A DNA stretch of 64,000 nucleotides from Flavobacterium aeripolare (lineage in GTDB: Bacteria; Bacteroidota; Bacteroidia; Flavobacteriales; Flavobacteriaceae), in assembly GCF_013294025.1 (NCBI RefSeq), contig NZ_JABSNL010000002.1, positions 248,001-312,000 of the forward strand. Direction: 5' to 3'. The position numbers and the translations under genes were made by a program. Positions 2,833 to 59,436 of this stretch are shown here, one piece after another (position 1 is the first letter of the stretch; the number at the start of each line of letters is the position of its first letter). Under the pieces are notes generated by a model that was given only the letters and a program-made list of their open reading frames with translations, made no database searches and was not told where the DNA came from.

Positions 2833-2859
2833 GCTATTATTATAGGTGAATTAAAGTGC

Positions 2860-5663: not shown

Positions 5664-5665
5664 TA

Positions 5666-6199: not shown

Positions 6200-6298
6200 A
6201 TTTATAAGGTTTTACATTAGTGTGCAAAGATAGTAATTCCAATATATAGATAGGAAAAAAATAATTTTACTATTTTATAAAAAAAAGAAGTCAAAGAA

Positions 6299-6327
6299 TT
6301 GTTTATTGAAAAATAATTGTAAATTTG
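6299..6327 (+). promoter_or_regulatory. rpmE2 promoter
   Basis: TTG at 6299-6301, an 18-base spacer, then TAAATTTG at 6320-6327: a full match to the Bacteroidota -33/-7 consensus. Transcription should start near 6334, giving a leader of about 107 nt before rpmE2. Confidence 0.75.
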
Positions 6328-6375
6328 CAAACTCAAAATAACAGAATAAAACAAAAAGTTATAATGAATTTATAC

Positions 6376-6396
6376 CTTTCCCTTGAACAAGGAAAG
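6376..6396 (+). promoter_or_regulatory. Hairpin in the rpmE2 leader
   Basis: CTTTCCCTTG and CAAGGAAAG face each other across two bases and form a strong stem with one bulge in the 5' leader of the L31 gene. It lies inside a 16-codon upstream reading frame (6364-6414). It may take part in ribosomal-protein autoregulation; only the structure is seen. Confidence 0.45.
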
Positions 6397-6440
6397 CTTC
6401 AAAAGGAATTATAGCCAAACAAATAAAAAAGAATTACAAG

Positions 6441-6692
6441 ATGAAAAAAGGTGTACACCCAGAGAATTACAGATTAGTTGCATTTAAAGACATGTCAAAT
6501 GACGAAGTTTTTATCACTAAATCTACAGCAGATACAAAAGAAACAATTGAAGTTGATGGTGTTGAATATCCAGTTGTAAAAATGGAGATCTCAAGAACTT
6601 CTCACCCTTTTTACACAGGTAAAAACAAACTTATCGATACTGCAGGACGTATTGACAAGTTCAAAACTAAATACGCTAAACACGTTAAATAA
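6441..6692 (+). CDS. rpmE2: 50S ribosomal protein L31 type B
   Basis: Structural protein of the large ribosomal subunit. At 83 residues it has the type B length, begins [17 protein letters not shown] and carries the typical TSHPFYTGK segment. The zinc-binding cysteines of type A L31 are absent, so this form works without zinc. It has a strong own promoter, a structured leader and a terminator, so it is a single-gene transcript. Start, length and motifs are unambiguous. Confidence 0.97.
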
Positions 6693-6717
6693 TTTTAACT
6701 TGTTTTTGATTATAATA

Positions 6718-6746
6718 GAAAGCCTTCCACATCGGAAGGCTTTTTT
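6718..6746 (+). terminator. Terminator after rpmE2
   Basis: GAAAGCCTTCC, short loop, GGAAGGC followed by six T; classic intrinsic terminator 25 bases after the L31 stop codon. Confidence 0.9.
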
Positions 6747-6781
6747 ATTGCTATAATTGGAGTATTTAACAAATGAACTTC

Positions 6782-6813
6782 TTGATAATAGAAGGAAAAA
6801 CTTTGTAACTTTG
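6782..6813 (+). promoter_or_regulatory. Promoter of the GlmU-like gene
   Basis: TTG at 6782-6784, a 21-base spacer and TAACTTTG at 6806-6813. A second TAACTTTG follows at 6822-6829, but it is too close to the start codon at 6842 to leave a normal leader, so the first is preferred. Confidence 0.55.
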
Positions 6814-6841
6814 GTGCTGTATAACTTTGAAACGCTATAAA

Positions 6842-8017
6842 ATGAACTACATACTTTTTGACGGGCCTGCTCGTAATGCATTATTACCTTTTACTTTTAC
6901 ACGTCCAGTTGCTGATATCCTCATTGGTATTGTTAGTATACGTCAAAAGTGGGAAATGCACCTAGGTTCAACAACTACAACGCTTACAGAAGAATATTTA
7001 TCTGATAAATATCCTATGGTGGAGTTAGAGCAAAATGTTATGATTAATGCTTCTTTTTTGCCTACGCCAGAATTAGTTGATCTTATTTGCGATTTAGGAG
7101 ATAGGCAAGCAATTTTCAAAGGAGAAGAAGTGGTCGCTTTTTTTTCAAATGAAGAACAAGAAGAAGTAGATTTTGATGATTATGAAATTATCGAATACAC
7201 TGGAGAGTGTATCACGGTAATGAATACTTGGGATATTTTTTCGAAAAATGGTCAGGCTATCCAGCAAGATTTTGAATATATCACAGAAGATAGGCAATCG
7301 CTACCAATTCCTAAAAGTGTTAATGTAATTGCACCTGAAAATATTTTTATCGAAGAAGGAGCTAAATTAGAGTTTGTAACTTTGAATGCTTCAACGGGTC
7401 CTATATATATAGGTAAAAATGCTGAAATAATGGAAGGTTCAGTAATTAGAGGGCCGTTTTCATTAGGTGAAAGCGCTGTCGTTAAATTAGCTTCAAAAAT
7501 TTACGGACCTACAACTGTAGGTGAAAATTCAAGAGTGGGTGGAGAGGTGAATAATTCAGTATTGTTCAATAATTCAAATAAAGGGCATGATGGCTTTCTA
7601 GGAAATTCTGTTCTTGGGGAATGGTGTAATATAGGTGCAGATAGTAATAATTCGAATCTAAAAAATAATTACGAAGAAGTAAAACTATGGAGTTATGAAA
7701 CGGAAGGTTTTGCTAAAACAGGCTTACAATTTTGCGGATTAATGATGGGTGATCATAGTAAATGCGGAATCAATACTATGTTTAATACAGGAACTGTAAT
7801 TGGGGTAAGTGCAAACATCTTTGGTAGTGGCTTCCCTCGTAACTTTGTGCCTAGTTTTTCTTGGGGCGGAGCGTCTGGTTTTACGACGTATATTACTAAG
7901 AAAGCATTTCAAACCGCTAAAATCGTAATGAGTCGTAGAAACACGGAGTTTGACGATCAAGAAGCGGCAATTTTAGAGCATGTATTTGAGACAACAAAAA
8001 AATGGAGAAAAGAGTAA
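6842..8017 (+). CDS. GlmU-like sugar-nucleotide transferase with left-handed beta-helix
   Basis: The longest frame starts at a TTG (6827), but the ATG at 6842 gives the conserved N-terminus MNYILFDGPARNALLPFTFTRPVADI, so that start was chosen (391 residues). The first half is a divergent nucleotidyltransferase-like region. The second half is built of hexapeptide repeats (IYIGKNAEIMEGSVIRGP, VVKLASKIYGPTTVG) forming a left-handed beta-helix, as in acyltransferases. It fits the Bacteroidota family annotated as an alternative GlmU, a candidate for UDP-GlcNAc synthesis. Whether both activities are present is unproven: the canonical LxxGxGTRM loop of GlmU is not visible. Confidence 0.75.
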   Translation: MNYILFDGPARNALLPFTFTRPVADILIGIVSIRQKWEMHLGSTTTTLTEEYLSDKYPMVELEQNVMINASFLPTPELVDLICDLGDRQAIFKGEEVVAFFSNEEQEEVDFDDYEIIEYTGECITVMNTWDIFSKNGQAIQQDFEYITEDRQSLPIPKSVNVIAPENIFIEEGAKLEFVTLNASTGPIYIGKNAEIMEGSVIRGPFSLGESAVVKLASKIYGPTTVGENSRVGGEVNNSVLFNNSNKGHDGFLGNSVLGEWCNIGADSNNSNLKNNYEEVKLWSYETEGFAKTGLQFCGLMMGDHSKCGINTMFNTGTVIGVSANIFGSGFPRNFVPSFSWGGASGFTTYITKKAFQTAKIVMSRRNTEFDDQEAAILEHVFETTKKWRKE

Positions 8018-8326
8018 GCTCTTAATCAAAATATAGAAGTTAGATACCATTTTAAAAACTACCAGATAGCTACTATCTGGTAGTTTTTTTTAGTTAATTT
8101 CATTGTCAAATTTTAAAAACTATGTAATAATTGTTATTAAGTCTTAAAATTATCCATTTATGTTAAAAAATGCACAGTTGAGATGATTGTCTTTTTAGGG
8201 CTTTAAATCGCATTTATATCTTGCTTTGCTAGTTTATTCTCTTCATATGTTATAGTTTTATAAACAAAAAATCGAAAAGAATTGAATTTGCTGATTTTTT
8301 GATAATTATTAATTTAAAACATATTT
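8018..8326 (+). other. Intergenic region with terminator and AT-rich leader
   Basis: Holds the terminator of the GlmU-like gene and then about 230 bases of AT-rich sequence before the symporter gene. No coding frame and no clear TAnnTTTG promoter is visible, although a promoter for the symporter must lie here. Confidence 0.5.
8054..8090 (+). terminator. Terminator after the GlmU-like gene
   Basis: Inverted repeat AAAACTACCAGATAG / CTATCTGGTAGTTTT with a 3-base loop and a long T run. Confidence 0.9.
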
Positions 8327-9781
8327 ATGGAAGAGGTTATTGGGATGTTAAATGATTTAGTATGGAGTTATGCTTTAATCGTATTATGCCTAGGTTCGGG
8401 GCTCTATTTTTCTATCCGAACTCGTTTTTTACAGGTTCGACATCTTAAAGAAATGGTTCGTTTATTATTTGACGGAGAAAGTTCAGAGTCTGGTGTGTCA
8501 TCTTTTCAAGCCTTGTCAATGTCTTTAGCGGGTAGAGTAGGGACTGGTAATATTGCTGGTGTTGCAACTGCTATCGCTTTTGGTGGTCCAGGAGCTTTAT
8601 TCTGGATGTGGATCGTCGCTTTTTTTGGCGCTAGTACTGCTTTTATAGAGGCGACATTAGCTCAAATATACAAAGAGAAAGATAAAGGGTCGCTTCGTGG
8701 AGGGCCTTCGTTTTATATAGAAAAAGGATTGGGAGTAAAATGGTTTGCAACAGCTTTTGCTATTGTAGCTGTTATTGCCATGGGGGTTTTATTACCTGGG
8801 GTTCAAGCAAATTCTGTCGCAGAGGGAATAGATAATGCTTTTCAAATTGACCCTTTAATTACAGGTATAGCCTTATCAGTCATATTTGCTGCTATTGTTT
8901 TTGGAGGTGTGAAACGTATTGCCAAATTTACAGAGTTGATCGTGCCTTTTATGGCTATTGCTTATATTATCGCTGCTATTGCGATCGTTGCGATTGATTT
9001 TGATAGACTTCCTGGAATTATTTCATTAATTTTTAAAAGTGCTTTCAATATGGAAGCGGGTTTTGGTGCTGTATTTGGTTTGGCTGTAGAATGGGGTGTT
9101 AAAAGAGGTATTTATTCTAATGAGGCTGGTCAAGGATCGGCTCCTCACATTGCGGCAGCTGCAAATGTATCTCACCCTACAAAGCAAGGTCTAGTTCAAG
9201 CATTCTCTGTGTATATTGATACTATCTTAGTTTGTTCTGCAACTGGGTTCATGATTTTGATTACGGGTACTTATAATGTACAAAACCCTAATTTTGGTAA
9301 TAAGCAAGGTGCTTCTGAGTTTTTATATAGTGGTCTAGCAAGTGTTACTCCGGGTGCTGGTTACACGCAGAGTGCTATGGATACCGTTTTTCCAGGTGTT
9401 GGTTCGTACTTTGTTGCCATTGCATTATTTTTCTTTGCCTTTACAACCATATTAGCTTATTATTATATTGCTGAAACTAATGTATCTTATTTGACGAGAA
9501 AGTTTAAAACGCCTATGTTTAATTATGCGTTGCGCGCTGTGATGATTGCTGTAATGATTTATGGTAGTATCAATACGGCAAAATTGGCTTGGACGATTGG
9601 AGATATTGGAGTAGGTTTAATGGCTTGGTTTAATATTATCGCAATATTATTGTTGCAAAAACCGGCATTAGCGGCATTAAGAGATTATGAAAAACAGAAG
9701 AAAGAAGGGAAAGATCCTGTTTTTAATCCAAAAGATATAGGTGTTGATAATGCTGAAATTTGGAATGAAGAGAAAAAATAA
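8327..9781 (+). CDS. Sodium/alanine symporter (AGCS family)
   Basis: Imports alanine (or glycine) with sodium across the inner membrane. The 484 residues are strongly hydrophobic, with about ten to eleven transmembrane helices. They carry the AGCS signatures: the early GRVGTGNIAGVATAIAFGGPGA segment, GGPSFYIEKGLG, and the diagnostic SNEAGQGSAPHIAAAA. The C-terminal 35 residues are charged and cytoplasmic. Length and order match the family. It is a single-gene unit with its own terminator; neighbours give no clue on regulation. Cation or substrate preference cannot be read further. Confidence 0.93.
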   Translation: MEEVIGMLNDLVWSYALIVLCLGSGLYFSIRTRFLQVRHLKEMVRLLFDGESSESGVSSFQALSMSLAGRVGTGNIAGVATAIAFGGPGALFWMWIVAFFGASTAFIEATLAQIYKEKDKGSLRGGPSFYIEKGLGVKWFATAFAIVAVIAMGVLLPGVQANSVAEGIDNAFQIDPLITGIALSVIFAAIVFGGVKRIAKFTELIVPFMAIAYIIAAIAIVAIDFDRLPGIISLIFKSAFNMEAGFGAVFGLAVEWGVKRGIYSNEAGQGSAPHIAAAANVSHPTKQGLVQAFSVYIDTILVCSATGFMILITGTYNVQNPNFGNKQGASEFLYSGLASVTPGAGYTQSAMDTVFPGVGSYFVAIALFFFAFTTILAYYYIAETNVSYLTRKFKTPMFNYALRAVMIAVMIYGSINTAKLAWTIGDIGVGLMAWFNIIAILLLQKPALAALRDYEKQKKEGKDPVFNPKDIGVDNAEIWNEEKK

Positions 9782-9798
9782 CTACTTCTTATATACTG

Positions 9799-9842
9799 AA
9801 AAACCTCTAACAACGACAGCAATCGTTTTTAGAGGTTTTTTT
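9799..9842. terminator. Bidirectional terminator between convergent genes
   Basis: AAAAACCTCT and AGAGGTTTTTT arms around a 22-base loop lie between the convergent symporter and hydrolase genes. There is a T run in both directions. Confidence 0.75.
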
Positions 9843-9857
9843 ATAAGTAGAACTATG

Positions 9858-10349
9858 TTATAGCGCTTTAAAAAACAAATCAATCTCTTTTTTAAAAACG
9901 CTTAGCGGAATGCTGTGTTCAAGTTCTTTGAGGATACTTAAACGTAAATCTGTTGTGAAAGGCAGTAAAGCGGTAATGTGTGCAATGTTATCGCTAGCTT
10001 TTATAACATCATCTTGAGCACCTATCACAATGTGAATGGCTTTGTCGTGTTCTAATGTGCTCTCAGCAATCACTTGTGGAATATTGAGTCTATAAGGTAG
10101 TGCTGGATTAAAAAGTAGTGCCGGTGTCTGCATTAATTTCGATAAATAAAAACCTGTAAATCCGCCCATGCTACTGCCAATTATAACATCAATATTCTTG
10201 TCTTTGTATTCTTGTTGCAAAGTAGCAATCATGTTTTGATTTGCTTTGTAATCCATATCTGGAGCATAAACGGTTCCGTGAATTGCTAATAATGCTCTCT
10301 TAGGTGCGCTTAGTTTACTTTCTAAGCCGTGTAAGTATAGTATGTTCAT
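9858..10349 (-). CDS. YqiA/YcfP-like alpha/beta hydrolase
   Basis: 163 residues, the small size usual for YqiA-type esterases. It begins MNILYLHGLESKLSAPK, the HG oxyanion loop of the fold. The nucleophile elbow is GSSMGGF (Ser about residue 60), followed by an acid-loop candidate GAQDDVI and a C-terminal His in ELEHSIP. It is probably a cytoplasmic esterase or thioesterase of unknown substrate. It is a single gene, convergent with the symporter and divergent from the ABC-F gene. Confidence 0.8.
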   Translation of the reverse strand: MNILYLHGLESKLSAPKRALLAIHGTVYAPDMDYKANQNMIATLQQEYKDKNIDVIIGSSMGGFTGFYLSKLMQTPALLFNPALPYRLNIPQVIAESTLEHDKAIHIVIGAQDDVIKASDNIAHITALLPFTTDLRLSILKELEHSIPLSVFKKEIDLFFKAL

Positions 10350-10473
10350 TGCTTCATTATTTGTGATAGAAAAGTAAAGGTAGGTTGTTAGGTTTTTATT
10401 TTCGAAAAAAAAACTGCTTTAGCGATTCCTTTTAATGCTTTGATGGTGATATGCTTCAATTGCAGTATAAAAA

Positions 10474-10503
10474 TTGTCTAATTAGTGATTTAAGCTATCT
10501 TTG
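10474..10503 (+). promoter_or_regulatory. Promoter of the ABC-F gene
   Basis: TTG at 10474-10476, exactly 19 bases, then TATCTTTG at 10496-10503; a consensus Bacteroidota promoter about 60 bases before the ABC-F start. Confidence 0.8.
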
Positions 10504-10565
10504 CATTTTTAAAAATTACTTTAAGTTTGAATCTAAGGTAAGTAAATCTACAAATCAATACTATA

Positions 10566-12200
10566 ATGATTACAGTTAACGATGTTTCGGTACATTTTGG
10601 TGGTACTACGCTATTTAGCGACGTTTCATTTGCAATTAATGAAAATGATAAAATCGCCCTTATGGGTAAAAACGGAGCGGGTAAATCAACGCTTCTTAAA
10701 ATTATTGCTGGACAAAGTAAACCTTCAACAGGAAATGTATCTGCCCCAAAAGAAGCGGTTGTTGCTTATTTACCGCAGCATCTTCTTACAACTGATGGTG
10801 CGACTGTAATGGAAGAAGCGTCAAAAGCTTTTGGAGAAATTCTAGGAATGAAATTGGAGATTGACGAAATCAATGAGCAATTAACAATACGTACTGATTA
10901 TGAAAGTGATGCGTACATGAAATTGATCGAAAGAGTTTCTGACTTAAGTGAGAAGTACTACGCTGTTGAAGAAGTAAATTATGAGGCTGAGGTAGAGAAA
11001 ATACTTACAGGACTGGGTTTTGAACGTGAGGATTTTACGCGTCAAACATCGGAGTTTTCTGGAGGTTGGAGAATGCGTATTGAACTGGCCAAAATTCTAT
11101 TGCAAAAACCAGATTTGATTTTGCTAGATGAGCCTACAAATCACATGGATATTGAAAGTATTCAGTGGTTAGAGGAATTTTTAATGAATGAAGCAAAAGC
11201 AGTTGTGGTAATTTCGCACGATAGAGCTTTTGTAGATAATATAACAAACCGTACTATTGAAGTAACAATGGGACGTATTTATGATTACAAAGCTAAGTAT
11301 TCACATTACTTAGAGTTGCGTAAGGATCGTAGAATACACCAGCAAAAAGCCTACGATGAACAGCAAAGAATGATTGCTGATAATAGGACTTTTATTGACC
11401 GTTTTAAAGGTACTTTCTCTAAAACAGATGCGGTGCAATCGCGTGTTAAAATGTTGGAGAAATTAGTAATTGTCCAAGTGGATGAAGTGGATAACTCTTC
11501 TTTAAGATTGAAATTTCCGGCTGCAGCACGTTCAGGACAATATCCTGTTATTGTGAAGGATTTAGGTAAATCGTACGGTAATCACGTAGTTTTTAAAGAT
11601 GCTAATATTGTTATTGAAAGAGGTCAAAAAGTGGCTTTTGTAGGTAAAAATGGTGAGGGAAAATCTACAATGATCAAAGCGATCATGAAAGAAATTGGTA
11701 TTGATAGCGGTACTCTAGAAATAGGACATAATTCTCAAATAGGATACTTTGCTCAAAATCAAGCGTCATTATTAGATGAGAATGCTACTATTTTTGAAAC
11801 TATTGATGGAATTGCTGTTGGAGATGTGCGTACGCAAATAAAGAATATTCTAGGTGCATTTATGTTCCAAGGAGATGACATTACTAAAAAGGTTAAAGTA
11901 CTTTCAGGAGGTGAGAAAACGCGTCTAGCGATGATTAAATTATTGTTAGAGCCGGTTAACTTATTAATTCTAGATGAGCCGTCAAATCACTTAGATATGA
12001 AAACAAAGGATATTATTAAAGACGCCTTGCGTGACTTTGATGGGACTTTGATTTTAGTATCGCACGATCGTGACTTTTTAGACGGTCTGGCAACTAAAGT
12101 ATTTGAATTTGGTAACAAGCGAGTAGTAGAACATTTTGAAGATATTAGCGGGTTTCTAGCTAATAAGAAAATGGAAAACATGAGAGAGATCGAAAAATAG
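10566..12200 (+). CDS. ABC-F family ribosome-associated ATPase
   Basis: 544 residues with two ABC ATPase domains and no membrane segments, the layout of ABC-F translation factors. Domain 1 has Walker A GKNGAGKST (about 34-42), signature FSGGWRMRIELAK and Walker B LILLDEPTNHMD. Domain 2 has Walker A GKNGEGKST, signature LSGGEKTRLAMIK and Walker B LILDEPSNHLD. Between them is the charged interdomain linker (about 240-310). Such proteins bind the ribosomal E site and relieve stalled translation; some give antibiotic protection. Size and linker fit a housekeeping member rather than a specific resistance determinant, but this is not certain. Confidence 0.92.
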   Translation: MITVNDVSVHFGGTTLFSDVSFAINENDKIALMGKNGAGKSTLLKIIAGQSKPSTGNVSAPKEAVVAYLPQHLLTTDGATVMEEASKAFGEILGMKLEIDEINEQLTIRTDYESDAYMKLIERVSDLSEKYYAVEEVNYEAEVEKILTGLGFEREDFTRQTSEFSGGWRMRIELAKILLQKPDLILLDEPTNHMDIESIQWLEEFLMNEAKAVVVISHDRAFVDNITNRTIEVTMGRIYDYKAKYSHYLELRKDRRIHQQKAYDEQQRMIADNRTFIDRFKGTFSKTDAVQSRVKMLEKLVIVQVDEVDNSSLRLKFPAAARSGQYPVIVKDLGKSYGNHVVFKDANIVIERGQKVAFVGKNGEGKSTMIKAIMKEIGIDSGTLEIGHNSQIGYFAQNQASLLDENATIFETIDGIAVGDVRTQIKNILGAFMFQGDDITKKVKVLSGGEKTRLAMIKLLLEPVNLLILDEPSNHLDMKTKDIIKDALRDFDGTLILVSHDRDFLDGLATKVFEFGNKRVVEHFEDISGFLANKKMENMREIEK

Positions 12201-12221
12201 TAGTACTGCTACTGGTGTAAT

Positions 12222-12263
12222 AAATTGCCCCCAACGAGCAAGAAGCTTGTTGGGGGCAAATTT
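12222..12263. terminator. Strong terminator after the ABC-F gene
   Basis: AAATTGCCCCCAAC and GTTGGGGGCAAATTT arms around a loop that itself pairs (GAGC...GCTT). It lies between convergent genes and can serve both. Confidence 0.85.
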
Positions 12264-12276
12264 ATTTAGTGTAGAT

Positions 12277-12561
12277 TTATAATCTTATTCCAGGGGGTAA
12301 GAGTTCTTTGTACTCAGGATTCTTTTTGAAAAAAAGTACAATTTTAGGAAGTATAGGCACTACTCTAAATTTGTTTTCAATGGCAAAAGCCATTATTTTT
12401 GATAAGAATAGTGAAATCGTATCCTCATCATCATAATTCTCTGGTGCGTGAATTTTTGTTAGAAAAATTTTCTTCTCTTGTAAAGAGTATTCTACTGCAA
12501 GTAATCCAGAGGCTGTCGTTGTTTCAAATTGTCTTGCAAACGTATTGTCTTTAATTTCCAT
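12277..12561 (-). CDS. Small GNAT-like acetyltransferase (YjdJ/COG2388 type)
   Basis: 94 residues, the usual size of the minimal GNAT proteins of COG2388. The pattern ends with AFAIENKFRVVPILPKIVLFFKKNPEYKELL, where these proteins have the conserved VxPxCxY...F..K.PEY segment. The cysteine found in many members at the PxC position is replaced (PILP), so the acetyl-transfer mechanism may differ or activity may be lost. Substrate unknown. It is a single gene, convergent with the ABC-F gene. Confidence 0.75.
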   Translation of the reverse strand: MEIKDNTFARQFETTTASGLLAVEYSLQEKKIFLTKIHAPENYDDEDTISLFLSKIMAFAIENKFRVVPILPKIVLFFKKNPEYKELLPPGIRL

Positions 12562-12978
12562 GATAATAATTGTTTCCTACTGTTTTAATTAATAAGTGAG
12601 CGTTTGTAATTATAATTTGTATCAAACAATACTTTCAAAACGGCTGCTATTTTAAATTTATTTGGTCAGGAAAATTTAATCGCTTTATAGCAAATTGAGA
12701 AGGTGGCTGCTATGAAAGTCTAAAAACAGCTTGTACAATCTATAATTAATGGTACTTTCAAAGGTATCAATTTGATATTCAATATCAAATGATTTTAACG
12801 CTTCCTTTGCTAGCTGTATGCCTTTTTTAAAGTTACAGCCACGCACTACGTATTAGCGTCCTCATAATTTAATCCTAATATAATTTTACTAAGGCAGCTA
12901 GTTTCAATAAATAAAGTATTTTTATAAACAGATATTTTTTATTCTAGTTAACTTTAAAGAATTAAACGTACACAAAAA
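12562..12978. other. 417-bp intergenic region with a possible gene fragment
   Basis: No normal gene. On the minus strand a 53-codon frame (12685-12846, GTG start) reads like real protein, with GIQLAKEALKSFDIEYQI in a helical, charged pattern, but it has no recognisable family and no clear ribosome binding site. It may be the remnant of a decayed gene. The rest is AT-rich spacer containing the promoter of the next gene. Confidence 0.35.
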
Positions 12979-52225: not shown

Positions 52226-52260
52226 AAAAAAAAATGGCTAAGTAAAATACTTAACCATTT
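52226..52260 (-). terminator. Original terminator of the tRNA operon
   Basis: On the minus strand AAATGGTTAAGTA / TACTTAGCCATTT (one mismatch) followed by nine T, starting 3 bases after the 3' end of tRNA-Lys. Confidence 0.85.
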
Positions 52261-52262
52261 TG

Positions 52263-52335
52263 TGACCCGACTGGGGCTCGAACCCAGGACCCCATCATTA
52301 AAAGTGATGTGCTCTACCAACTGAGCTATCGAGTC
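52263..52335 (-). tRNA. tRNA-Lys (anticodon TTT), distal copy cut off from its operon
   Basis: 73 nt; acceptor GACTCGA / TCGGGTC, anticodon TTT, discriminator A. It is identical in sequence to the copies at 58916, 59196 and 59306. The inserted element now separates it from the operon promoter at 59.4 kb; no strong promoter is seen directly upstream. Confidence 0.96.
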
Positions 52336-52395
52336 ATTATGTATTGCTAAAAAAGGATACTTGGTGTTTTCCTTCTTGTAATTTAATTTTATTCT

Positions 52396-52412
52396 TTTGT
52401 GACCACGGTGGG
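52396..52412. repeat. attL core: 17 bp of the tRNA-Leu 3' end
   Basis: TTTGTGACCACGGTGGG is identical to 59065-59081, which spans the 3' end of tRNA-Leu. The match stops abruptly (G here, A there). It marks the left junction of the integrated element. Confidence 0.85.
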
Positions 52413-52526
52413 GACAAAACCCGTGTATTTATGTGAATTTACTTATAGCTTAAAATTATTAAACTATTGATTATTAGTGTTTTGGTAAAATAAGCAAGTA
52501 CGAATAAATGCACATAAATACATAAT

Positions 52527-52548
52527 ATGTAAAACAAATGTAAAACAA
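52527..52548. repeat. Left arm-type repeat: ATGTAAAACAA in tandem
   Basis: Two perfect, abutting copies of the 11-mer. The same 22 bp recur in the same orientation at 59012-59033 near the right end, so these are likely integrase arm-binding sites. The junction also spells TACATTTG on the minus strand. Confidence 0.75.
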
Positions 52549-52563
52549 GATTGATTTAATGCT

Positions 52564-52571
52564 TATCTTTG
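52564..52571 (+). promoter_or_regulatory. Integrase promoter -7 element
   Basis: TATCTTTG, 16 bases before the integrase start; no well-spaced TTG upstream, so expression may need an activator. Confidence 0.5.
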
Positions 52572-52587
52572 TATTAAAATCAACTGT

Positions 52588-53898
52588 ATGAAAATTAGGT
52601 ACGAAATCCGAAGCAAAAGCGATCCTGTTAATATTTATATTTCACTTTCCGCTGGACGTGGCAAAGCATTTAAGAGAAAGACGGGTAAAACAATTTATCT
52701 TGAATTTTGGGACGATGTAAAAGGGCTTCCTAAAGGTAAGACTGATGAAATTAAAAATCTTAAAACTGATCTTGAAAAATTAAGAATTGCAGTTAATGAA
52801 AGATTTGATAAAGATGAACCTGCAGGAATTGAAATTACAGCCGACTGGCTGCAGGACCAAGTAAATTTTTATTTTGGAAAATCTGAGATAGTAGAATTAG
52901 ATATTTTGACTACCTACATTCAAAAGTATATTGATGAAGCACCCTACAAAAAGAATGCAAAAAAAGAATTAGGATTAAGCAAAGGGCGCATTCAAAATTT
53001 AAAGCTTTTTAAAAATACAGTTTTAAAGTATGAAGAAGAAAAGTTAAAAGGTAAAAGCGTAGTATTGAAAGAGATTAATTTAAAATTTCTTGAAAATTAT
53101 AAAATGTGGATGTTTGGCAAAGGTTATTCGACAAATTACGTCGGTAAAAACATTGCTAATTTTAGAACTATTTGCCGAGATGCTGGAAAAAATGATTTTG
53201 AAATTTCCACACAAGTCAAAAGCTTTGAGGGAATTTCAGAGAGCCGAGAACCTGAGGACATAATTACATTAAATGAAGACGAACAGGAGGCAATCAAAAA
53301 AGCGGAACTGTTCCGAGAGGCTTTAATTAATGCACGCAAATTTTTATTATTAGGTTGTTTAATCGGGCAGCGTGCAGGCGATTTGCTGAACATTACTAAG
53401 AAAAATATAAAAGAGATTGGAGGCGTAAAAATCATTGAATTAAAGCAGCAAAAAACGGGTAAACTAGTTGCAGTTCCTTTACTTCCTGAGGCGTTGGAAA
53501 TTATCAAAGATGGTTTACCTTATAAAATATCTTTGTCCCGTTTCAATGAATACATTAAAGACGTTTGCAAAGCGGCTGGAATTGATGGACCAACAAAGGC
53601 AAGGATCAAACAAACTAAAGGAACACCGCATACAAAAGATATATTCCCAAAATGGCAGGTTATTAGTTCGCACGTTTGCCGCAGGAGCTTTGCAACTAAT
53701 TTTTACGGACGCATTCCAACGCCCGTATTAATGAACATAACCGCCCACGGAACAGAAAGGATGTTTTTATCTTATATCGGTAAAACTACATACGATAACG
53801 CATTTCAAATGGTGGAGTACTTCAATAAATTAGCACCAAAAGTAAAAGAAAGTCCAGCAATGGAAGTAATAAGAAATACAGGATCAAATGAAAAATAG
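52588..53898 (+). CDS. Tyrosine recombinase (element integrase)
   Basis: 436 residues. The N-terminus is an arm-binding domain (MKIRYEIRSKSDPVNIYI, KTIYLEFWDD), then a SAM-like core-binding domain (about 100-210), then the catalytic domain. The catalytic residues are visible as R262 (GQRAGDLL), Lys about 290, H362-xx-R365 (SSHVCRRSF), H387 (AHGT) and the nucleophile Y396 (LSYIG). It belongs to the Bacteroidota integrase group of transposons and islands. It should recombine the 17-bp tRNA-Leu core. Its last 11 bases overlap the next gene's start. Confidence 0.95.
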   Translation: MKIRYEIRSKSDPVNIYISLSAGRGKAFKRKTGKTIYLEFWDDVKGLPKGKTDEIKNLKTDLEKLRIAVNERFDKDEPAGIEITADWLQDQVNFYFGKSEIVELDILTTYIQKYIDEAPYKKNAKKELGLSKGRIQNLKLFKNTVLKYEEEKLKGKSVVLKEINLKFLENYKMWMFGKGYSTNYVGKNIANFRTICRDAGKNDFEISTQVKSFEGISESREPEDIITLNEDEQEAIKKAELFREALINARKFLLLGCLIGQRAGDLLNITKKNIKEIGGVKIIELKQQKTGKLVAVPLLPEALEIIKDGLPYKISLSRFNEYIKDVCKAAGIDGPTKARIKQTKGTPHTKDIFPKWQVISSHVCRRSFATNFYGRIPTPVLMNITAHGTERMFLSYIGKTTYDNAFQMVEYFNKLAPKVKESPAMEVIRNTGSNEK

Positions 53899-54562
53899 CA
53901 ATACTGTAAAGTTAACAATTAGACAGAACCAAATGACAGCAGCACAAAAAAAAGACCAGCAATACCAAGCGGACTTTATCGAGTTTGGATATAAAAACCC
54001 GTCTGCAACTGAATTAAATTATCTTGAAATTAAAATAAAGCTTTTAACAAAGGTTGTTAATGAATGCGAGGAAACAGCGGATTTTGATTTTTTAGGCGAG
54101 GAGCTGGACGGTATGGAGCTTGTTAACGGTAATTTGATCACTACCAAAACGGGGACGGCTTCCGATTGGTTTTTTTGGAAAAGTGAATTAGATTTTTTAA
54201 AAGAAAAGCAGGACCAACTTTTAAACCCAACGCCGCTAGTAATTGAGAAAAAAGATAATTTAAAGAAAGACTATAAAACAGATGTTTGGTTTTTAGCGGG
54301 CGTGCAGCTTGCCAATGGTAAAGCCTACCAATTAAGAAAAGATAAATTGAGTTTTAGAGATATTGCGGTAAAATTAGGTTTTAAAAGCAGCGACGGCGTT
54401 TATTTTTCAGAGTCAATTGGTAATAGTTCAAAAGGGGCTAAAAATATCTTTGAATACTTCGAAAGACTTAAAATAATAATCGATTATTGTAATGATAAAA
54501 GTATTGCAATAGATGATAGATTTATGAAAGAATGTACTGAAAAGTACCCAAATGAATTTTGA
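53888..54562 (+). CDS. Element protein of unknown function
   Basis: 224 residues, soluble. The first half is charged and helical (MTAAQKKDQQYQADFIEFGYKNPSATELNYLEIKIKLLTKVV); the second half contains DVWFLAGVQLANGKAYQLRKDKLSFRDIAVKLGFKSSDGVYFSESIG, where LSFRDIAVKLGF looks like a helix-turn-helix. It overlaps the integrase end by 11 bases, so translation is probably coupled. Proteins of this size regularly follow integrases in Bacteroidota islands; a DNA-binding or recombination-accessory role is inference. Confidence 0.75.
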   Translation: MKNSNTVKLTIRQNQMTAAQKKDQQYQADFIEFGYKNPSATELNYLEIKIKLLTKVVNECEETADFDFLGEELDGMELVNGNLITTKTGTASDWFFWKSELDFLKEKQDQLLNPTPLVIEKKDNLKKDYKTDVWFLAGVQLANGKAYQLRKDKLSFRDIAVKLGFKSSDGVYFSESIGNSSKGAKNIFEYFERLKIIIDYCNDKSIAIDDRFMKECTEKYPNEF

Positions 54563-54583
54563 TACTGAGTTGATACAGTATCA
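54560..54583. promoter_or_regulatory. Operator-like inverted repeat upstream of the excisionase gene
   Basis: TGATACTG (54560-54567) and CAGTATCA (54576-54583) form a perfect 8-bp inverted repeat with an 8-base spacer; the inner GATACAGTATC is itself a dyad. It lies about 60 bases before the HTH gene and fits a switch controlling excision and replication genes. Confidence 0.55.
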
Positions 54584-54642
54584 CAAAACAGTAACATTCA
54601 TGTAGTTGCACCTTTGCCAATATACTTTAAATATTGACAATT

Positions 54643-54912
54643 ATGGACGCACAAATTTTATTCCAAGGCTGTACATTCCAGCAACTAGCAGAGGCGACAG
54701 CCGCAATTCTTAGCGGTGCAACTCAACCAGCAAACACAACAACCGAAGCGGAACTTATAACCCGTGAAGAAGTTTGCAAATTGCTAAATTTCAACAAAAC
54801 TACATTACACAAACATACCAAATCGGGACGGTTAAAATCGTACGGTATCGGGGCACGAGTGCTATATAAACGATCCGAAGTTTTGGCGAGTGTTACGCCT
54901 TTAAAAAGATAA
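54643..54912 (+). CDS. Excisionase-like helix-turn-helix protein
   Basis: The ATG at 54643 is preferred to a TTG nine bases upstream (89 residues). The C-terminal half is an HTH_17/MerR-like DNA-binding domain: LITREEVCKLLNFNKTTLHKHTKSGRLKSYGIGARVLYKRSEVLASV. This is the standard excisionase form in Bacteroidota mobile elements. The N-terminal part (FQGCTFQQLAEATAAIL) is helical. The primase-like gene starts 4 bases after its stop, so both are co-expressed. Confidence 0.85.
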   Translation: MDAQILFQGCTFQQLAEATAAILSGATQPANTTTEAELITREEVCKLLNFNKTTLHKHTKSGRLKSYGIGARVLYKRSEVLASVTPLKR

Positions 54913-54916
54913 GGCT

Positions 54917-57151
54917 ATGGACAGCGCAATTGCCCACAACCTCAGCACCAAATATAAAGATACTTTTGACCCTAAACAAATCATTTTAAAGTCTTTACCT
55001 AATGTAAAATCTAATCGAGATAAGGCAACAAATATATCTTTGTTTGATATGGTTAACGGCTTCAAAGATGAAGCAAAAAGAAAACCGTTTGACAATTTAA
55101 GAAGCTTAACCGACCCAGTAAAAAAAGCTAATTTAAAGACTACAAAATTTAAAGCTTATTCAATTAGTATTGATGTTAACGATCAATTAACGGCTTTACT
55201 AACTTTAGATATTGACCACATAAAAGAAACCTACAATAAAACACCGCAGGAAGTCATACAGCTTATTTGTAAATATTACCCTGTTTTAATTGGCTCAACG
55301 TCAATAGGTGGCGACGGGGCATTTATTATTATGAGGTACAATTTAGATAATGACCTAAAAGCCGTCTTTGACTATATCGAGAGTGATTTAGAATTTACTT
55401 TAGGTATTAAGCTTGATGATCTTAAAGATGTTGCACGTCTTCGAATAGATACTTTTGATGAAAACACATATATCAATTGGAATGCTGGAGTGTATAACGA
55501 ATTTGTGCAGGAGGTAGAACCCGAACCAGTTGTAAAACAAATAGATAATTTTGATCTAGCTGGAAATACACCCGCACAGGCTTTTAATAATGATCCTAAA
55601 AGTATTGAGGTTATTAACGAACTTTTAGAGCAACAAGGCTACACAATCACAGCGGGCAAAACTCCCGCTTTATTTGAGTATCAAAGACCAGGAGGCAAAT
55701 TAAGAAGTATGGTTTGCTTCAACAACGAGGGTATTTTTAAATTCCAAGTCTTTAGCTCGAATACGGGACTTTTAAAAGATGTTTATAACTGTTACGAACT
55801 ATACAAGGAATTAGCAGGATTAACGGATTATGAAGCATCAAAACGGCTTAGTGTTCTAAATTTTGGCAAATTCATTGAAAGTAATAAAAACCTATTTCCT
55901 ATTGATGTTTTCCCGCCACGTTTTAGAGATTATGCAAACGATCTGAAACAAACGGTAAATTATCCAATTGATTACACGGGAACCGCTATGTTAGCAGCCA
56001 CCGCCACCGCAGCAGGCGCAAATTTAAAAGTAATTGTAAAAAGCGGCTGGATTGAGCAAGGTTCTATATTTTGTTGCCTACTTGGTAACGCTGGAGCAAA
56101 TAAGACGCACCCAATTAATACAATTTTTGCACCAATTAAAGCAATTGACAAGGATAGGCACGACAACTATAAATTTGAATATGATATTTATGCGAGCTAT
56201 GATAAACTATCTAAAAAAGATAAAGAAGCGCTTGACAACGTTTTTGCACCAACTTTAGAAAAAAGTATTTTAAGCAATTTTACAACTGAGATACTTTTTA
56301 AAAGACTATCTGAAAATCCGAGAGGTTGCACGGTTGTAAGTGATGAATTAATAAGCTTTTTGGAGGGAATGAATAATTATAGCAAAAGCGATCAGATAGG
56401 CTTTTATTTATCTGTTTGGAGCAACCAAAGCACGACAGTTGACCGTGTTGGTAATGCAATACCGTTATTTATTTCAAACCCTTATTTGTCAATTATTGGA
56501 GGGCTGCAGCCTAGAGCGTTAAACAAGGCATTCCCGCCCGATAAATTAAATAATGGGTTCTTTCAAAGATTTTTATTTGCGTACCCTGACGACGCTAAAA
56601 AAGAGCCTCTGAATGATAACGTAGCTAATGCGCATTTAGCGCAAAAGTATGAAGCTTTTATTAATGGTCTATTTAAAATTGATGAGCCAAAGACGTTAAC
56701 CTTTAGCCCAGCGGCAAAGACTTATTTTTATGAATGGCAGTCTAACAATTGCGACCAGGTAAACGAGCATCAAAACAGCATCAAAGGGGAAATTTTAAGC
56801 AAATACGACAACCATTTTATAAGGCTGGCTCTATTAGTGCAAATTATGACCGATAGCAGCAACGACCAAATAGAAATTGAAGCCGTCCACGCTGCAAAGG
56901 CATTATGTGATTATTACTTGAATTGCGCTTTTAAGGTTCTTGCAAAGATTCAGAATAAAGAAAGTTATCTTTTATCATTACCGCAGGACAAACAGCAGTT
57001 ATTTAATGGACTGGATCAACAGTTTACCACAGCCGAAGCAATTGCAGCGGGTGCGAGTTTGGAAATGATTGAACGAACTGTAAAAAACTATCTGACCGAT
57101 AGCAGCCTATTTAAGAAAGTCAAACACGGAATTTATCTTAAATGCCAATAA
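54917..57151 (+). CDS. DUF3987 protein with primase-like N-terminus (element replication)
   Basis: 744 residues. The N-terminal region (about 60-200) resembles the BT4734/VirE-type domain, with an acidic LLTLDIDHIKE strand and STSIGGDGAFIIMRY, comparable to the DxD and G-rich motifs of primases. Residues about 320-700 are DUF3987: the P-loop is GNAGANKT (390-397) with Asn where Gly is usual, and the Walker B is CTVVSDEL (about 471-478). A helicase/primase that starts element replication is likely. It is followed at once by a candidate iteron origin. The altered P-loop could weaken ATP binding. Confidence 0.82.
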   Translation: MDSAIAHNLSTKYKDTFDPKQIILKSLPNVKSNRDKATNISLFDMVNGFKDEAKRKPFDNLRSLTDPVKKANLKTTKFKAYSISIDVNDQLTALLTLDIDHIKETYNKTPQEVIQLICKYYPVLIGSTSIGGDGAFIIMRYNLDNDLKAVFDYIESDLEFTLGIKLDDLKDVARLRIDTFDENTYINWNAGVYNEFVQEVEPEPVVKQIDNFDLAGNTPAQAFNNDPKSIEVINELLEQQGYTITAGKTPALFEYQRPGGKLRSMVCFNNEGIFKFQVFSSNTGLLKDVYNCYELYKELAGLTDYEASKRLSVLNFGKFIESNKNLFPIDVFPPRFRDYANDLKQTVNYPIDYTGTAMLAATATAAGANLKVIVKSGWIEQGSIFCCLLGNAGANKTHPINTIFAPIKAIDKDRHDNYKFEYDIYASYDKLSKKDKEALDNVFAPTLEKSILSNFTTEILFKRLSENPRGCTVVSDELISFLEGMNNYSKSDQIGFYLSVWSNQSTTVDRVGNAIPLFISNPYLSIIGGLQPRALNKAFPPDKLNNGFFQRFLFAYPDDAKKEPLNDNVANAHLAQKYEAFINGLFKIDEPKTLTFSPAAKTYFYEWQSNNCDQVNEHQNSIKGEILSKYDNHFIRLALLVQIMTDSSNDQIEIEAVHAAKALCDYYLNCAFKVLAKIQNKESYLLSLPQDKQQLFNGLDQQFTTAEAIAAGASLEMIERTVKNYLTDSSLFKKVKHGIYLKCQ

Positions 57152-57345
57152 TGCACATAATGAAAGAAGTGCAAAGTGTATATATAAAATGCAAAAATGT
57201 AAATTTTTACTATAAGTATTTTTAAAATATATAACTATCTAATTATTAAGTAGTTATATGATATTAGTAAAATGAAAAGATAATTTATATAAAATCTTAT
57301 TTACACGCTTGCACTTTGCATTACTTGCATTTTGTGCACTTTGAA
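57152..57345. other. Candidate replication origin of the element
   Basis: An AT-rich core of about 100 bases is flanked by clustered TGCA-containing iterons: GTGCAAAGTGTA (57170-57181) on the left and, on the minus strand of 57301-57345, a run of ATGCAAGTA, ATGCAAAG and TGCAAG units; GTGCAAAGTG-type words face each other. There is no coding frame. Confidence 0.5.
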
Positions 57346-57411
57346 AAAATTAATAACAGCAGTTACCCCAAAAGGCTTAAACTAGAGTAGGGAATTTAAA
57401 ACACAAACACA

Positions 57412-57675
57412 ATGAACAATTTAAAACAAACTTTGATTAACGACATTTTAGCTTTAAACGATAAAAAGCACAACAGTACAATTTTTATAGCTTTTACACC
57501 ACCGACAAGGCAGCAGCTAGATAAATTAACGGTGCAGCAGTTGGAAGCCTTAAAAAAGGACTTGACCGACGCCCTTAATAAAAAGGATTTAGAGAGCAGG
57601 CAAAAGCAGTACAGCCAATTAAACGGACAGGTGCAAGGCTTTAAGAATAATAATAAAGGATTTACAATTGTCTAA
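57412..57675 (+). CDS. Small element protein of unknown function
   Basis: 87 residues. A helical middle (PPTRQQLDKLTVQQLEALKKDLTDALNKKDLESRQKQYSQLNG) with a regular leucine spacing suggests a short coiled coil or oligomerisation region. No known domain was recognised. It is the first gene after the putative origin and leads a four-gene unit. Confidence 0.65.
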   Translation: MNNLKQTLINDILALNDKKHNSTIFIAFTPPTRQQLDKLTVQQLEALKKDLTDALNKKDLESRQKQYSQLNGQVQGFKNNNKGFTIV

Positions 57676-57697
57676 AAGTAGAACTAAGTAGAATATT

Positions 57698-57997
57698 ATG
57701 AAAAGAACAAAGACAGGCGGTCGAGCCGCCAACACACCCAATAAAGTAAACGGACAAGCTAAAGAGTTAATTCGGAGCGTCGTAGATGCTGAAATTGCAA
57801 GGATTCCCGCATTACTAGATAAATTAAAACCCAAAGACCGTTTGGACGTAGTGATTAAGTTAATGAGCTTTGTAGTTCCCAAGCAAACGAAAATCGAAAT
57901 TGATATTGAAGAAAAGCGTTTCACGCCTTTAATTATCAACATTCAAGCACCGCCCGAACCTTTAAAACTAAACCTGTATGAAGACATTAAAAATTAA
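57698..57997 (+). CDS. Small element protein resembling phage small-terminase-like proteins
   Basis: 99 residues. It starts MKRTKTGGRAANTPNKVN; the TGGR...TPNK opening followed by AEIARIPALLDKLKPKDRLDVVIKLMSFVVPKQTKIEIDIEE is the pattern of short Bacteroidota phage and island proteins compared with small terminase or packaging-associated proteins. The N-terminus is basic and may bind DNA. The resemblance is weak, and no large terminase is in the element. Its 3' end overlaps the next gene by 20 bases. Confidence 0.65.
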   Translation: MKRTKTGGRAANTPNKVNGQAKELIRSVVDAEIARIPALLDKLKPKDRLDVVIKLMSFVVPKQTKIEIDIEEKRFTPLIINIQAPPEPLKLNLYEDIKN

Positions 57998-58325
57998 TAA
58001 CCTTAATGATTTAGAGGCTTTTATTTCAGATGAAGCCCTAAACAAAGAACATCGTTTCGATGTGTTTAATGAAGCCTTAAAAGATTTTAGTTTTTATGTC
58101 GTAATTGTGAAAGATGAAAATCAAAATCAAATTGTTGACCATCAAAATAAGTTGGTTGAGAATATGAAGCGGCTAATTAATGAAATTCGCACGAACCCCA
58201 CAAAAAACAATTATACAGGCTTTACGGTAATTTATAAAGAAGACTTGACAAGATTAACAACCGATGAACTTATTGCAAGAGCAAAAGCATTTCAACAAAC
58301 AAAACAATTAACAATTAAAAACTAA
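57978..58325 (+). CDS. Element protein of unknown function
   Basis: 115 residues, soluble, mixed alpha/beta: LKINNLNDLEAFISDEALNKEHRFDVFNEALKDFSFYVVIVKDENQNQIVDHQN and a helical C-terminus with DELIARAKAFQQTKQLTIKN. No domain was recognised. It overlaps the upstream gene by 20 bases and the next gene begins 4 bases after it, so these genes are made together. Confidence 0.6.
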   Translation: MKTLKINNLNDLEAFISDEALNKEHRFDVFNEALKDFSFYVVIVKDENQNQIVDHQNKLVENMKRLINEIRTNPTKNNYTGFTVIYKEDLTRLTTDELIARAKAFQQTKQLTIKN

Positions 58326-58329
58326 AATT

Positions 58330-58857
58330 ATGAAAAAATATATTTTATCAGAAAATACCAAAGTAGCAAACGAATTAATTCAGACCGAGAAAACGAAAAT
58401 CGCTGCAGCGCAAAAATTCCTATCATTAATCAAACCTTTAGGATTTGACGGCTTCACGAGCTGGAGCGAGATAGAAGATACTTTAAAACAAGTTTATCCA
58501 AAAGCAACTTTATTATTCAACATTCAAGCGCAAGGAATTGAGCAGGAGTACAACGAGGCTAAAGAACACTATTCCCGCTTCGGTTCGTTTTATCGCTTCG
58601 AACCTTTTACGGAGGAGGAGCAGCAGGAAATTACAGAAAATGTAAAAGTTTATACAACTAGCGAGGCACAAAATGAGGTTTATGGGATTGTACACCGTGT
58701 TGTTGATGATCTGAACCGATTAAAGGAATTAGGTTTGGATTTGAATGTTAACGGCATTCACGAGATGCACCGCTTATTTGCTGGACATAATCGAGACAAG
58801 CCCGCAGTAAGAGTTAATACACGTGAATTAGCCGATTACATTAAAAGGATCAAATAA
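58330..58857 (+). CDS. Element protein of unknown function
   Basis: 175 residues, soluble and mostly helical: NELIQTEKTKIAAAQKFLSLIKPLGFDGFTSWSEIEDTLKQVYP near the start and VHRVVDDLNRLKELGLDLNVNGIHEMHRLFAGHNRDKPAVRVNTRELADYIKRIK at the end. No catalytic motif or known family was recognised. It is the last protein gene of the element, ends just before the bidirectional terminator, and could be cargo. Confidence 0.6.
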   Translation: MKKYILSENTKVANELIQTEKTKIAAAQKFLSLIKPLGFDGFTSWSEIEDTLKQVYPKATLLFNIQAQGIEQEYNEAKEHYSRFGSFYRFEPFTEEEQQEITENVKVYTTSEAQNEVYGIVHRVVDDLNRLKELGLDLNVNGIHEMHRLFAGHNRDKPAVRVNTRELADYIKRIK

Positions 58858-58874
58858 AGATATCTTATTTAACG

Positions 58875-58908
58875 CAAAAAACCGCCCTATTATTGGAGCG
58901 GTTTTTTT
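58875..58908. terminator. Bidirectional terminator of the element and of the rebuilt tRNA operon
   Basis: AAAAAACCGCC / GGAGCGGTTTTTTT with a T run both ways. It ends the plus-strand element genes and, 8 bases beyond the element tRNA-Lys, the minus-strand tRNA operon. Confidence 0.85.
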
Positions 58909-58915
58909 ATGCTTG

Positions 58916-58988
58916 TGACCCGACTGGGGCTCGAACCCAGGACCCCATCATTAAAAGTGATGTGCTCTACCAACTGAGCTATCGAGTC
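58916..58988 (-). tRNA. tRNA-Lys (anticodon TTT), element-borne copy
   Basis: 73 nt, identical to the three other tRNA-Lys genes. It lies inside the element, 80 bases from tRNA-Leu, and takes the place that the distal tRNA-Lys held before insertion. It also shares the ATTAT bases directly 5' of the gene with the distal copy at 52263. Confidence 0.95.
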
Positions 58989-59011
58989 ATTATTTTAATA
59001 AAAATTTCAAG

Positions 59012-59033
59012 ATGTAAAACAAATGTAAAACAA
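59012..59033. repeat. Right arm-type repeat: ATGTAAAACAA in tandem
   Basis: Same 22 bp and same orientation as 52527-52548, between the element tRNA-Lys and the right attachment core. Confidence 0.75.
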
Positions 59034-59064
59034 TACAGCTGTAACTACTTGATAATCAACAGTA

Positions 59065-59081
59065 TTTGTGACCACGGTGGG
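59065..59081. repeat. attR core inside the tRNA-Leu 3' end
   Basis: TTTGTGACCACGGTGGG, identical to 52396-52412. It covers the flank, discriminator, 3' acceptor strand and the first bases of the T-stem, so tRNA-Leu stays intact after integration. Confidence 0.85.
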
Positions 59082-59151
59082 ATTTGAACCCACACGCCCT
59101 TGCGAGCACCACCCCCTCAAGATGGCAAGTCTACCGTTTCTCCACGTGGCC
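59069..59151 (-). tRNA. tRNA-Leu (anticodon GAG)
   Basis: 83 nt class II tRNA. Acceptor arms are GGCCACG / CGTGGTC with discriminator A, the anticodon stem CCATC / GGTGG encloses TTGAGGG (anticodon GAG), and a long variable arm is present. Its 3' end is the integration target. Confidence 0.95.
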
Positions 59152-59195
59152 GTGAAAATAAAATGGTCAAGTAGTTGATACTCGACCATTATTTG

Positions 59196-59268
59196 TGACC
59201 CGACTGGGGCTCGAACCCAGGACCCCATCATTAAAAGTGATGTGCTCTACCAACTGAGCTATCGAGTC
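59196..59268 (-). tRNA. tRNA-Lys (anticodon TTT), operon copy 2
   Basis: 73 nt, identical to the other copies; second gene of the minus-strand operon. Confidence 0.96.
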
Positions 59269-59305
59269 TTGCTTTCAAGTAAATTATGTGTTTGATCACT
59301 ATTTG

Positions 59306-59378
59306 TGACCCGACTGGGGCTCGAACCCAGGACCCCATCATTAAAAGTGATGTGCTCTACCAACTGAGCTATCGAGTC
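59306..59378 (-). tRNA. tRNA-Lys (anticodon TTT), operon copy 1
   Basis: 73 nt, first gene of the minus-strand tRNA operon, about 27 bases after the promoter. Confidence 0.96.
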
Positions 59379-59404: not shown

Positions 59405-59436
59405 CAAATATAAGGACTTTATTTGATGTTTTCCAA
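59405..59436 (-). promoter_or_regulatory. Promoter of the tRNA operon
   Basis: On the minus strand TTG (59436-59434), 21 bases, TATATTTG (59412-59405). Confidence 0.75.

Follow-up and report, generated by a model that had tools for sequence, protein, structure and literature searches.

The 64,000-nucleotide stretch of Flavobacterium aeripolare DNA analysed here (referred to as the window) contains a tRNA operon and, inserted in the 3' end of the tRNA-Leu(GAG) gene of this operon, a 6.67-kb tyrosine-integrase element (about 52399-59067). The features of the operon and the element are listed below in the direction of operon transcription; TAnnTTTG is presumed to be the promoter -7 motif, following the Bacteroidota promoter consensus.

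59405..59412, minus strand: -7 motif TAnnTTTG (TATATTTG, then CACCC) of the likely operon promoter (motif test)
59305..59378, minus strand: host tRNA-Lys(UUU) 1 (ARAGORN, Rfam)
59195..59268, minus strand: host tRNA-Lys(UUU) 2 (ARAGORN, Rfam)
59162..59190, minus strand: terminator-like hairpin between the second tRNA-Lys (Lys2) and tRNA-Leu (-14.9 kcal/mol, z -6.6)
59068..59151, minus strand: host tRNA-Leu(GAG), the target gene, intact after integration (complete according to ARAGORN and Rfam)
59065..59081, minus strand: attR core, 17 bp, TTTGTGACCACGGTGGG (plus-strand reading)
58989..59067, minus strand: element right end, containing the arm-type repeat 59012-59033
58915..58988, minus strand: element-borne tRNA-Lys(UUU) (ARAGORN, Rfam; start at 58915 or 58916)
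58877..58906, minus strand: hairpin and U run 3' of the element-borne tRNA-Lys (folding)
58330..58857, plus strand: element ORF, 175 aa, without family match
57978..58325, plus strand: element ORF, 115 aa, weak matches only, to PHROGs of unknown function
57698..57997, plus strand: element ORF, 99 aa, without family match
57412..57675, plus strand: element ORF, 87 aa, weak matches only
54917..57151, plus strand: DUF3987 primase/helicase-like protein (DUF3987, E 2e-50; DNA helicase PHROG, E 9e-42)
54643..54912, plus strand: HTH_17 excisionase-like protein
53888..54562, plus strand: element ORF, 224 aa, without family match
52588..53898, plus strand: tyrosine integrase
52527..52548, plus strand: left arm-type repeat, identical to 59012-59033
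52396..52412, minus strand: attL core, a copy of the tRNA-Leu 3' end
52336..52398, minus strand: original Leu-Lys spacer, 63 bp (53/63 bases identical in the relative locus L168)
52262..52335, minus strand: original operon-distal tRNA-Lys, now cut off (ARAGORN, Rfam)
52231..52261, minus strand: original operon terminator

The core sequence, GTGACCACGGTGGG, is the 3' end of tRNA-Leu and is present in two copies, at 59068 and at 52399. The second copy precedes the start of the integrase gene by 189 bp, and the identity between the two sites extends to 17 bp if the TTT before the core is counted. A 22-bp arm repeat (ATGTAAAACAAATGTAAAACAA) was identified at both element ends (52527-52548 and 59012-59033). 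The related element of F. xanthum (L126), the integrase of which is 86% identical, has a right end of the same kind but without tRNA-Lys: beside tRNA-Leu, it shares the arm repeat with the window and, deeper inside the element, also AAGCATAAAAAAACC, followed by a terminator-like stem. Between the repeat and AAGCATAAAAAAACC, L126 has 56 bp of AT-rich DNA, whereas the window has 23 bp plus the tRNA-Lys gene (counted by eye). From these comparisons, the segment 58989-59067 is element DNA, which places the tRNA-Lys gene within the element. Among the eight element proteins, no relaxase was recognised by Pfam, PHROGs, or NCBIfam, three of the eight having no family match and two more only weak ones. 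PADLOC returned no match for six element proteins, no solved structure matched the integrase sequence at E <= 0.01, and no integrase relatives were found in the viral contigs searched.

When 398 genomes of the genus were searched with a sequence pattern, a relative, G223, was detected in which the end of the operon resembles the attL side of the window. The gene order at this locus (L168) is aroK, Lys, Lys, Leu, 63 bp, Lys, terminator, tRNA-Asp, and a DUF4252 gene, i.e. that of the window minus the element, and the aroK and DUF4252 proteins are 86 and 83% identical to those of the window, respectively. After removal of the element from the window in silico, 1102 of 1275 aligned columns agree with L168. 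The L168 spacer aligns with the attL-side spacer at 53/63 bases (score 43; the highest of 300 shuffles reached 16.5), and its alignment with the element right end (58989-59067) is at chance level (score 1.0; 300 shuffles gave a mean of -3.0 and a highest value of 6.5). No integrase of the window element's family was found in G223 (best match, 29% identity). An earlier reading of the window, made from the sequence alone and referred to here as the sequence-only reading, had predicted three tRNA-Lys and one tRNA-Leu at element-free loci and four tRNA-Lys where the element is present; G223 contains three tRNA-Lys(UUU) genes and the window genome four. That reading had also named the arrangement that would contradict it, a tRNA-Lys with the 59012-59064 sequence beside tRNA-Leu in an element-free relative, and G223 does not have this arrangement.

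The element boundary at tRNA-Leu is backed by three sequence-based tests (core copies, arm repeats together with L126, and the empty site of G223) and holds in all of them, and the anatomy of the element, including its tRNA-Lys, is near certain. As direct repeats, the two tRNA-Lys copies extend over 81 bp, which could be taken to mean that tRNA-Lys was the target, that the true boundary lies there, and that the second copy is a target duplication. However, right-end arm repeats lie between the proximal copy and tRNA-Leu, the element-free G223 lacks the 58989-59067 sequence, and the core copy at 52399 is that of tRNA-Leu. The same tRNA-Leu core serves ten nearer integrase relatives with both ends in view (nine by the att test; L137 from the presence of two cores). 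A target duplication at tRNA-Lys is rejected on the empty site and the arm repeats, and this alternative is given a negligible probability.

The element-borne tRNA-Lys(UUU) is identical to the three host copies and is located 79 bp behind tRNA-Leu in operon orientation, between the terminator of the element and its arm-site right end. The ARAGORN and Rfam calls, the arm repeats, the core copies, and the empty site agree with the claim of the sequence-only reading that the gene at 58916 is inside the element and directly behind tRNA-Leu in operon orientation. The terminator that it had placed 8 bases past the gene was likewise recovered, as a hairpin and then a U run beginning 8 nt past tRNA-Lys (58906-58877; -16.7 kcal/mol, z -3.9). 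T runs are present on both strands at 58877-58906, and the hairpin may also be the terminator of the last element gene. Upstream of the gene, TACATTTG is found inside the right arm repeat, 39 bp away and without a TTG at the usual distance; no convincing promoter of its own is apparent, a weak one at TACATTTG being possible. The 81-bp repeat formed with the distal tRNA-Lys encloses nearly the whole element and reaches 5 nt upstream of the gene. Homologous recombination between the two tRNA-Lys copies would delete the integrase and leave Leu, Lys, and the terminator together with a 79-bp scar, a route of loss that would be independent of the integrase.

In the window genome, four matches to the tRNA-Lys(UUU) core were found (up to three mismatches allowed), all at this locus, and ARAGORN called no other lysine anticodon in 30 loci covering 52 tRNA matches (22 matches having no locus of their own). 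The sequence of the distal tRNA-Lys is still perfect, meaning either that the insertion is recent or that the gene is still in use. As the sequence-only reading had claimed, this gene (52263) is now about 6.7 kb from the operon promoter, with the element lying between it and tRNA-Leu and G223 providing the corresponding empty site. The further claim that it has no good promoter can be compared with the genus. Among 59 aroK-side loci surveyed (a 60th, L088, was too short and was left out), one has no tRNA-Leu and 25 have a tRNA-Lys behind tRNA-Leu; the other 33 of the 58 loci with tRNA-Leu show none in the stretch taken, so that a tRNA-Lys in this position is dispensable in the genus. The promoter motif was counted in the 25 loci and in 10 further loci (L168-L177). 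TAnnTTTGCACCC is present 29-33 bp before tRNA-Lys in all 19 loci in which this gene is located 125 bp to 6.2 kb behind tRNA-Leu, and in none of the 16 in which it is located 15-67 bp behind, one of which (L068) has a bare TAnnTTTG. tRNA-Lys thus seems to acquire its own promoter wherever it is uncoupled from tRNA-Leu. The 63-bp spacer of the distal tRNA-Lys in the window lacks TAnnTTTG, the nearest occurrence being about 207 bp upstream, in the left arm repeat. By this motif test, the distal gene is without the motif that all 19 far-placed genes carry, in accordance with the claim, and is therefore regarded as a gene of the coupled class that is now disconnected. Judged by its spacing of 79 bp, the element-borne tRNA-Lys is in the coupled position.

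A tRNA-Lys 66-96 bp behind tRNA-Leu was found by pattern search in 4 of 398 genomes, including the window genome. Two of the other three, G325 (67 bp) and G264, have tRNA-Lys behind tRNA-Leu and no distant second copy in loci of roughly 3 kb, and in the third, G072, tRNA-Leu alone was called. A first pattern search had matched 13 of the 398 genomes, the match in the window being the attL side; a forced A in the pattern missed the 79-bp case of the window. Both searches use exact words and miss variants and spacers of <21 bp (four loci: L046, L050, L054, and L063). Remnants of related elements were considered as an explanation for displaced tRNA-Lys genes elsewhere. The integrase HMM, run against ORFs of 150 aa or more, matched 3 of 70 loci (L074, L075, and L170); because none of the loci with tRNA-Lys displaced by 0.8-6.2 kb is among these, the displacements are not explained by this integrase type.

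Several loci show other arrangements. Downstream of tRNA-Leu, L050 (G004) and L054 (G175) contain three tRNA-Lys genes at intervals of about 205 bp, separated by decayed tRNA-Leu-like copies; these arrays look like an amplified Leu-Lys unit in which the Leu copies are decaying. In L052 (G187), the first operon is followed after about 4 kb by a second Lys-Leu pair (oriented locus, around 4438-4637), and the HMM found no integrase at this locus. In L075 (G019), the tRNA-Leu site is occupied by a different element, which is about 12 kb long (oriented locus, 421-12622). Its integrase, encoded next to the tRNA, is a distant relative (26% identity), and the opposite end carries an exact copy of the core.

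In 67 of 69 loci, including that of the window, the spacer between Lys2 and tRNA-Leu has a folding energy below -8 kcal/mol; the sequence-only reading makes no mention of a hairpin here. In most loci, the conserved hairpin is formed by GGTCGAGTA...TACTTGACC and is followed by a U run, leaving little room for a promoter before tRNA-Leu, and the same hairpin precedes tRNA-Leu in the element-free G223. tRNA-Leu(GAG) and everything behind it may be made solely by read-through, or the hairpin may serve processing. Such a terminator-like hairpin may limit the benefit of an operon repair, as the repaired part may be only weakly transcribed.

Integrases matching that of the window at E <= 1e-60 were found in 60 of 398 genomes, including the window genome, and a family-wide search at E <= 1e-100 gave 2 of 397 genomes, the window genome and G060. 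Besides the integrase of the window, 62 matches were obtained, 60 of which were examined (G395:C181, a fragment, and G332 were left out). Elements were counted as resolved when each end matched the 3' end of a tRNA in an att test, which detects tRNA targets only; 27 of the 60 were resolved in this sense. The remaining 33 include L137 (both cores, no called tRNA), and tRNA genes were found within the stretch taken in two of them, L191 (Leu and Gly) and L198 (Leu), and in none of the other 31. The resolved elements target tRNA-Leu(GAG) (9), tRNA-Arg(UCG) (2), and tRNA-Leu with other anticodons (16); the two tRNA-Arg(UCG) users belong to the 11 resolved nearer relatives and use this gene instead of tRNA-Leu(GAG). 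The 16 resolved distant relatives (L185-L215; integrase identity 34-38%) target tRNA-Leu with the anticodons UAA, UAG, and CAA, and their integrase genes are about 240-290 bp from attL, while the nearer group uses Leu-GAG or Arg-UCG.

The window element fits a Flavobacterium tRNA-Leu(GAG) family, a grouping made here from an integrase identity of about 60% or more, a core about 200 bp upstream of the integrase gene, an HTH protein, and insertion in tRNA-Leu(GAG). Its relatives in F. xanthum (L126, 86%), LC2016-13 (L127, 79%), and others share the core, the arm repeats at both ends, the integrase, and the HTH protein, and where the target tRNA-Leu(GAG) is in view it lies beside aroK, as in the window; DUF3987 was found in only 3 of 12 compared elements. 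The window element differs from the resolved members in that these have no carried tRNA and, in the flank, no tRNA behind attL. Among all 27 resolved relatives, no tRNA is present between the integrase and the target, and none was found behind attL in flanks of about 1.2-1.9 kb (0.58 kb in L127, 0.09 kb in L141, and 0.31 kb in L211). As far as the flanks were seen, the target in these relatives, with no tRNA behind the insertion, looks like the last gene of its unit. The window element is thus the only one of 28 resolved elements that cuts off a downstream tRNA, within the flanks seen, and also the only one that carries a tRNA. If the two properties were independent, their coincidence would have a chance of 1/28, which, for one event, is suggestive.

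Elements that target tRNA genes are usually mild in their effects because the target is restored. At the locus analysed here, insertion at the 3' end of tRNA-Leu(GAG) left this gene intact and separated it from the tRNA-Lys that closed the operon. In the explanation that we favour, an ancestor of this copy acquired a tRNA-Lys, probably from a Leu-Lys operon such as that of the window. Transcription past tRNA-Leu would then yield tRNA-Leu and the tRNA-Lys of the element and stop at the hairpin of the element, so that the operon would give the same ordered products as before the insertion. Since the element's tRNA-Lys has no convincing promoter, its expression would depend on the element being located behind an active tRNA unit. 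The gene would have been retained because, with it present, disconnection of the distal tRNA-Lys is no longer costly. Taken as a whole, from the insertion through the re-created order to this reason for retention, the explanation is somewhat more probable than its negation. Its general form would be a self-compensation at the level of the operon, in which an element restores its target, adds a promoterless copy of the next gene and a terminator, is expressed in this part only when integrated, and has been favoured by selection because it makes a non-terminal tRNA gene less costly as an attachment site; this we consider a real possibility that falls a little short of probable. Repair of the operon by the carried tRNA-Lys is plausible from the arrangement of the genes in this single case. 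The two proximal host tRNA-Lys copies before tRNA-Leu stay connected, and, given these two, a third connected copy may be of little importance.

A neutral capture, in which a duplication happened to copy the tRNA-Lys beside the attachment site into the element end and the copy is not under selection for any role, accounts for several of these observations. Short matches flank the gene (ATAAT before and AA after it), and a gene that adjoins the site may simply be easier to capture, the co-occurrence with a cut-off tRNA-Lys then following from its position. Only 1 of the 28 resolved elements has a carried tRNA, the copied stretch of 81 bp barely exceeds the gene, the corresponding place in L126 is occupied by 56 bp of AT-rich DNA instead of 23 bp and the tRNA, and 33 of 58 loci do without a tRNA-Lys behind tRNA-Leu. 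Against it, the tRNA-Lys is a complete gene that does not differ from the host copies, and it lies in operon orientation with a terminator-like hairpin directly after it. On balance, neutral capture is a substantial possibility, though not the expected one. As for the route of acquisition, aberrant excision was considered and set aside: the routes worked out place tRNA-Lys on the integrase side or together with the host spacer, and not behind the right arm. A local duplication is left as the origin for this reason, which is a guess.

The carried tRNA-Lys might instead serve the element itself, in translating its AAA-rich genes or in replacing tRNA-Lys(UUU) destroyed by an anticodon nuclease. 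PrrC cuts tRNA-Lys(UUU), and such a role has been proposed for phage tRNAs in the excerpted text of PMC10865867. However, the gene is identical to that of the host, so that a nuclease should cut both products alike, and it has no convincing promoter and lies behind a host unit; this possibility is very unlikely. The favoured explanation of operon repair corresponds in part to the insertion strategy limiting the cost to the host that the sequence-only reading had proposed: the tRNA-Lys is borne by the element, the order Lys-Lys-Leu-Lys-terminator is re-created, and the distal tRNA-Lys is cut off, but an evolved strategy does not follow from one case with no counterpart in the 27 resolved relatives.

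The sequence-only reading knew of no described case of this kind. The general idea is in print as tRNA-dependent lysogeny, described for mycobacteriophage Fionnbharth and others, in which the tRNA of the integrated phage is required for survival of the lysogen (PMC10865867, in excerpt); the form involving an operon neighbour was not found, and no description of an element carrying the operon neighbour of its target was obtained from titles and the beginnings of abstracts in the open-licence literature. In both systems, a tyrosine integrase acts at an attB overlapping a host tRNA gene (on sequence evidence in the window), and the carried tRNA, tRNA-Lys(UUU) there too according to the same excerpt, makes up, or in the window would make up, for a function disturbed by the insertion. 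In tRNA-dependent lysogeny, as the excerpt presents it, the target tRNA is destroyed and replaced by the carried one, whereas in the window the target tRNA-Leu(GAG) is intact and the carried tRNA-Lys matches the disconnected neighbour. The window element departs in this way from two defining features of tRNA-dependent lysogeny: it restores the target, and the isotype that it carries is not that of the target. A promoter has been demonstrated for the phage tRNA, which is not closely related in sequence to the host tRNA (PMC10865867, in excerpt), while the gene carried in the window does not differ from the host's, lacks a convincing promoter, and is accompanied by two other connected copies. 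A remark in the consulted part of a report on Sinorhizobium prophages is related to tRNA-dependent lysogeny (PMC11476347).

Among integrative mobilizable elements of Bacteroidota, those of the NBU1 type, which are mobilised by a conjugative helper, resemble the window element in their tyrosine integrase and their insertion at a tRNA-Leu 3' end, but NBU1 encodes a MobP relaxase, no counterpart of which was recognised in the window element by Pfam, PHROGs, or NCBIfam, and the excerpt describing it mentions no element-borne tRNA (PMC5704250). Extracts of two further reports describe a Riemerella island with an NBU1-like integrase domain adjoining tRNA-Arg (PMC6764341) and ICEPni1, which adjoins a tRNA operon, with no mention in that extract of a carried operon tRNA (PMC7466150).

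The window presents a case of what can happen when a target tRNA gene is not the last gene of its unit, and it offers a direct way of testing if attachment sites are restricted by the polar damage that insertion does to tRNA operons. It also shows that a mobile element can be the carrier of an additional tRNA gene next to a tRNA operon. If the proposed explanation is true, tRNA-dependent integration would extend from the target gene to its neighbours.
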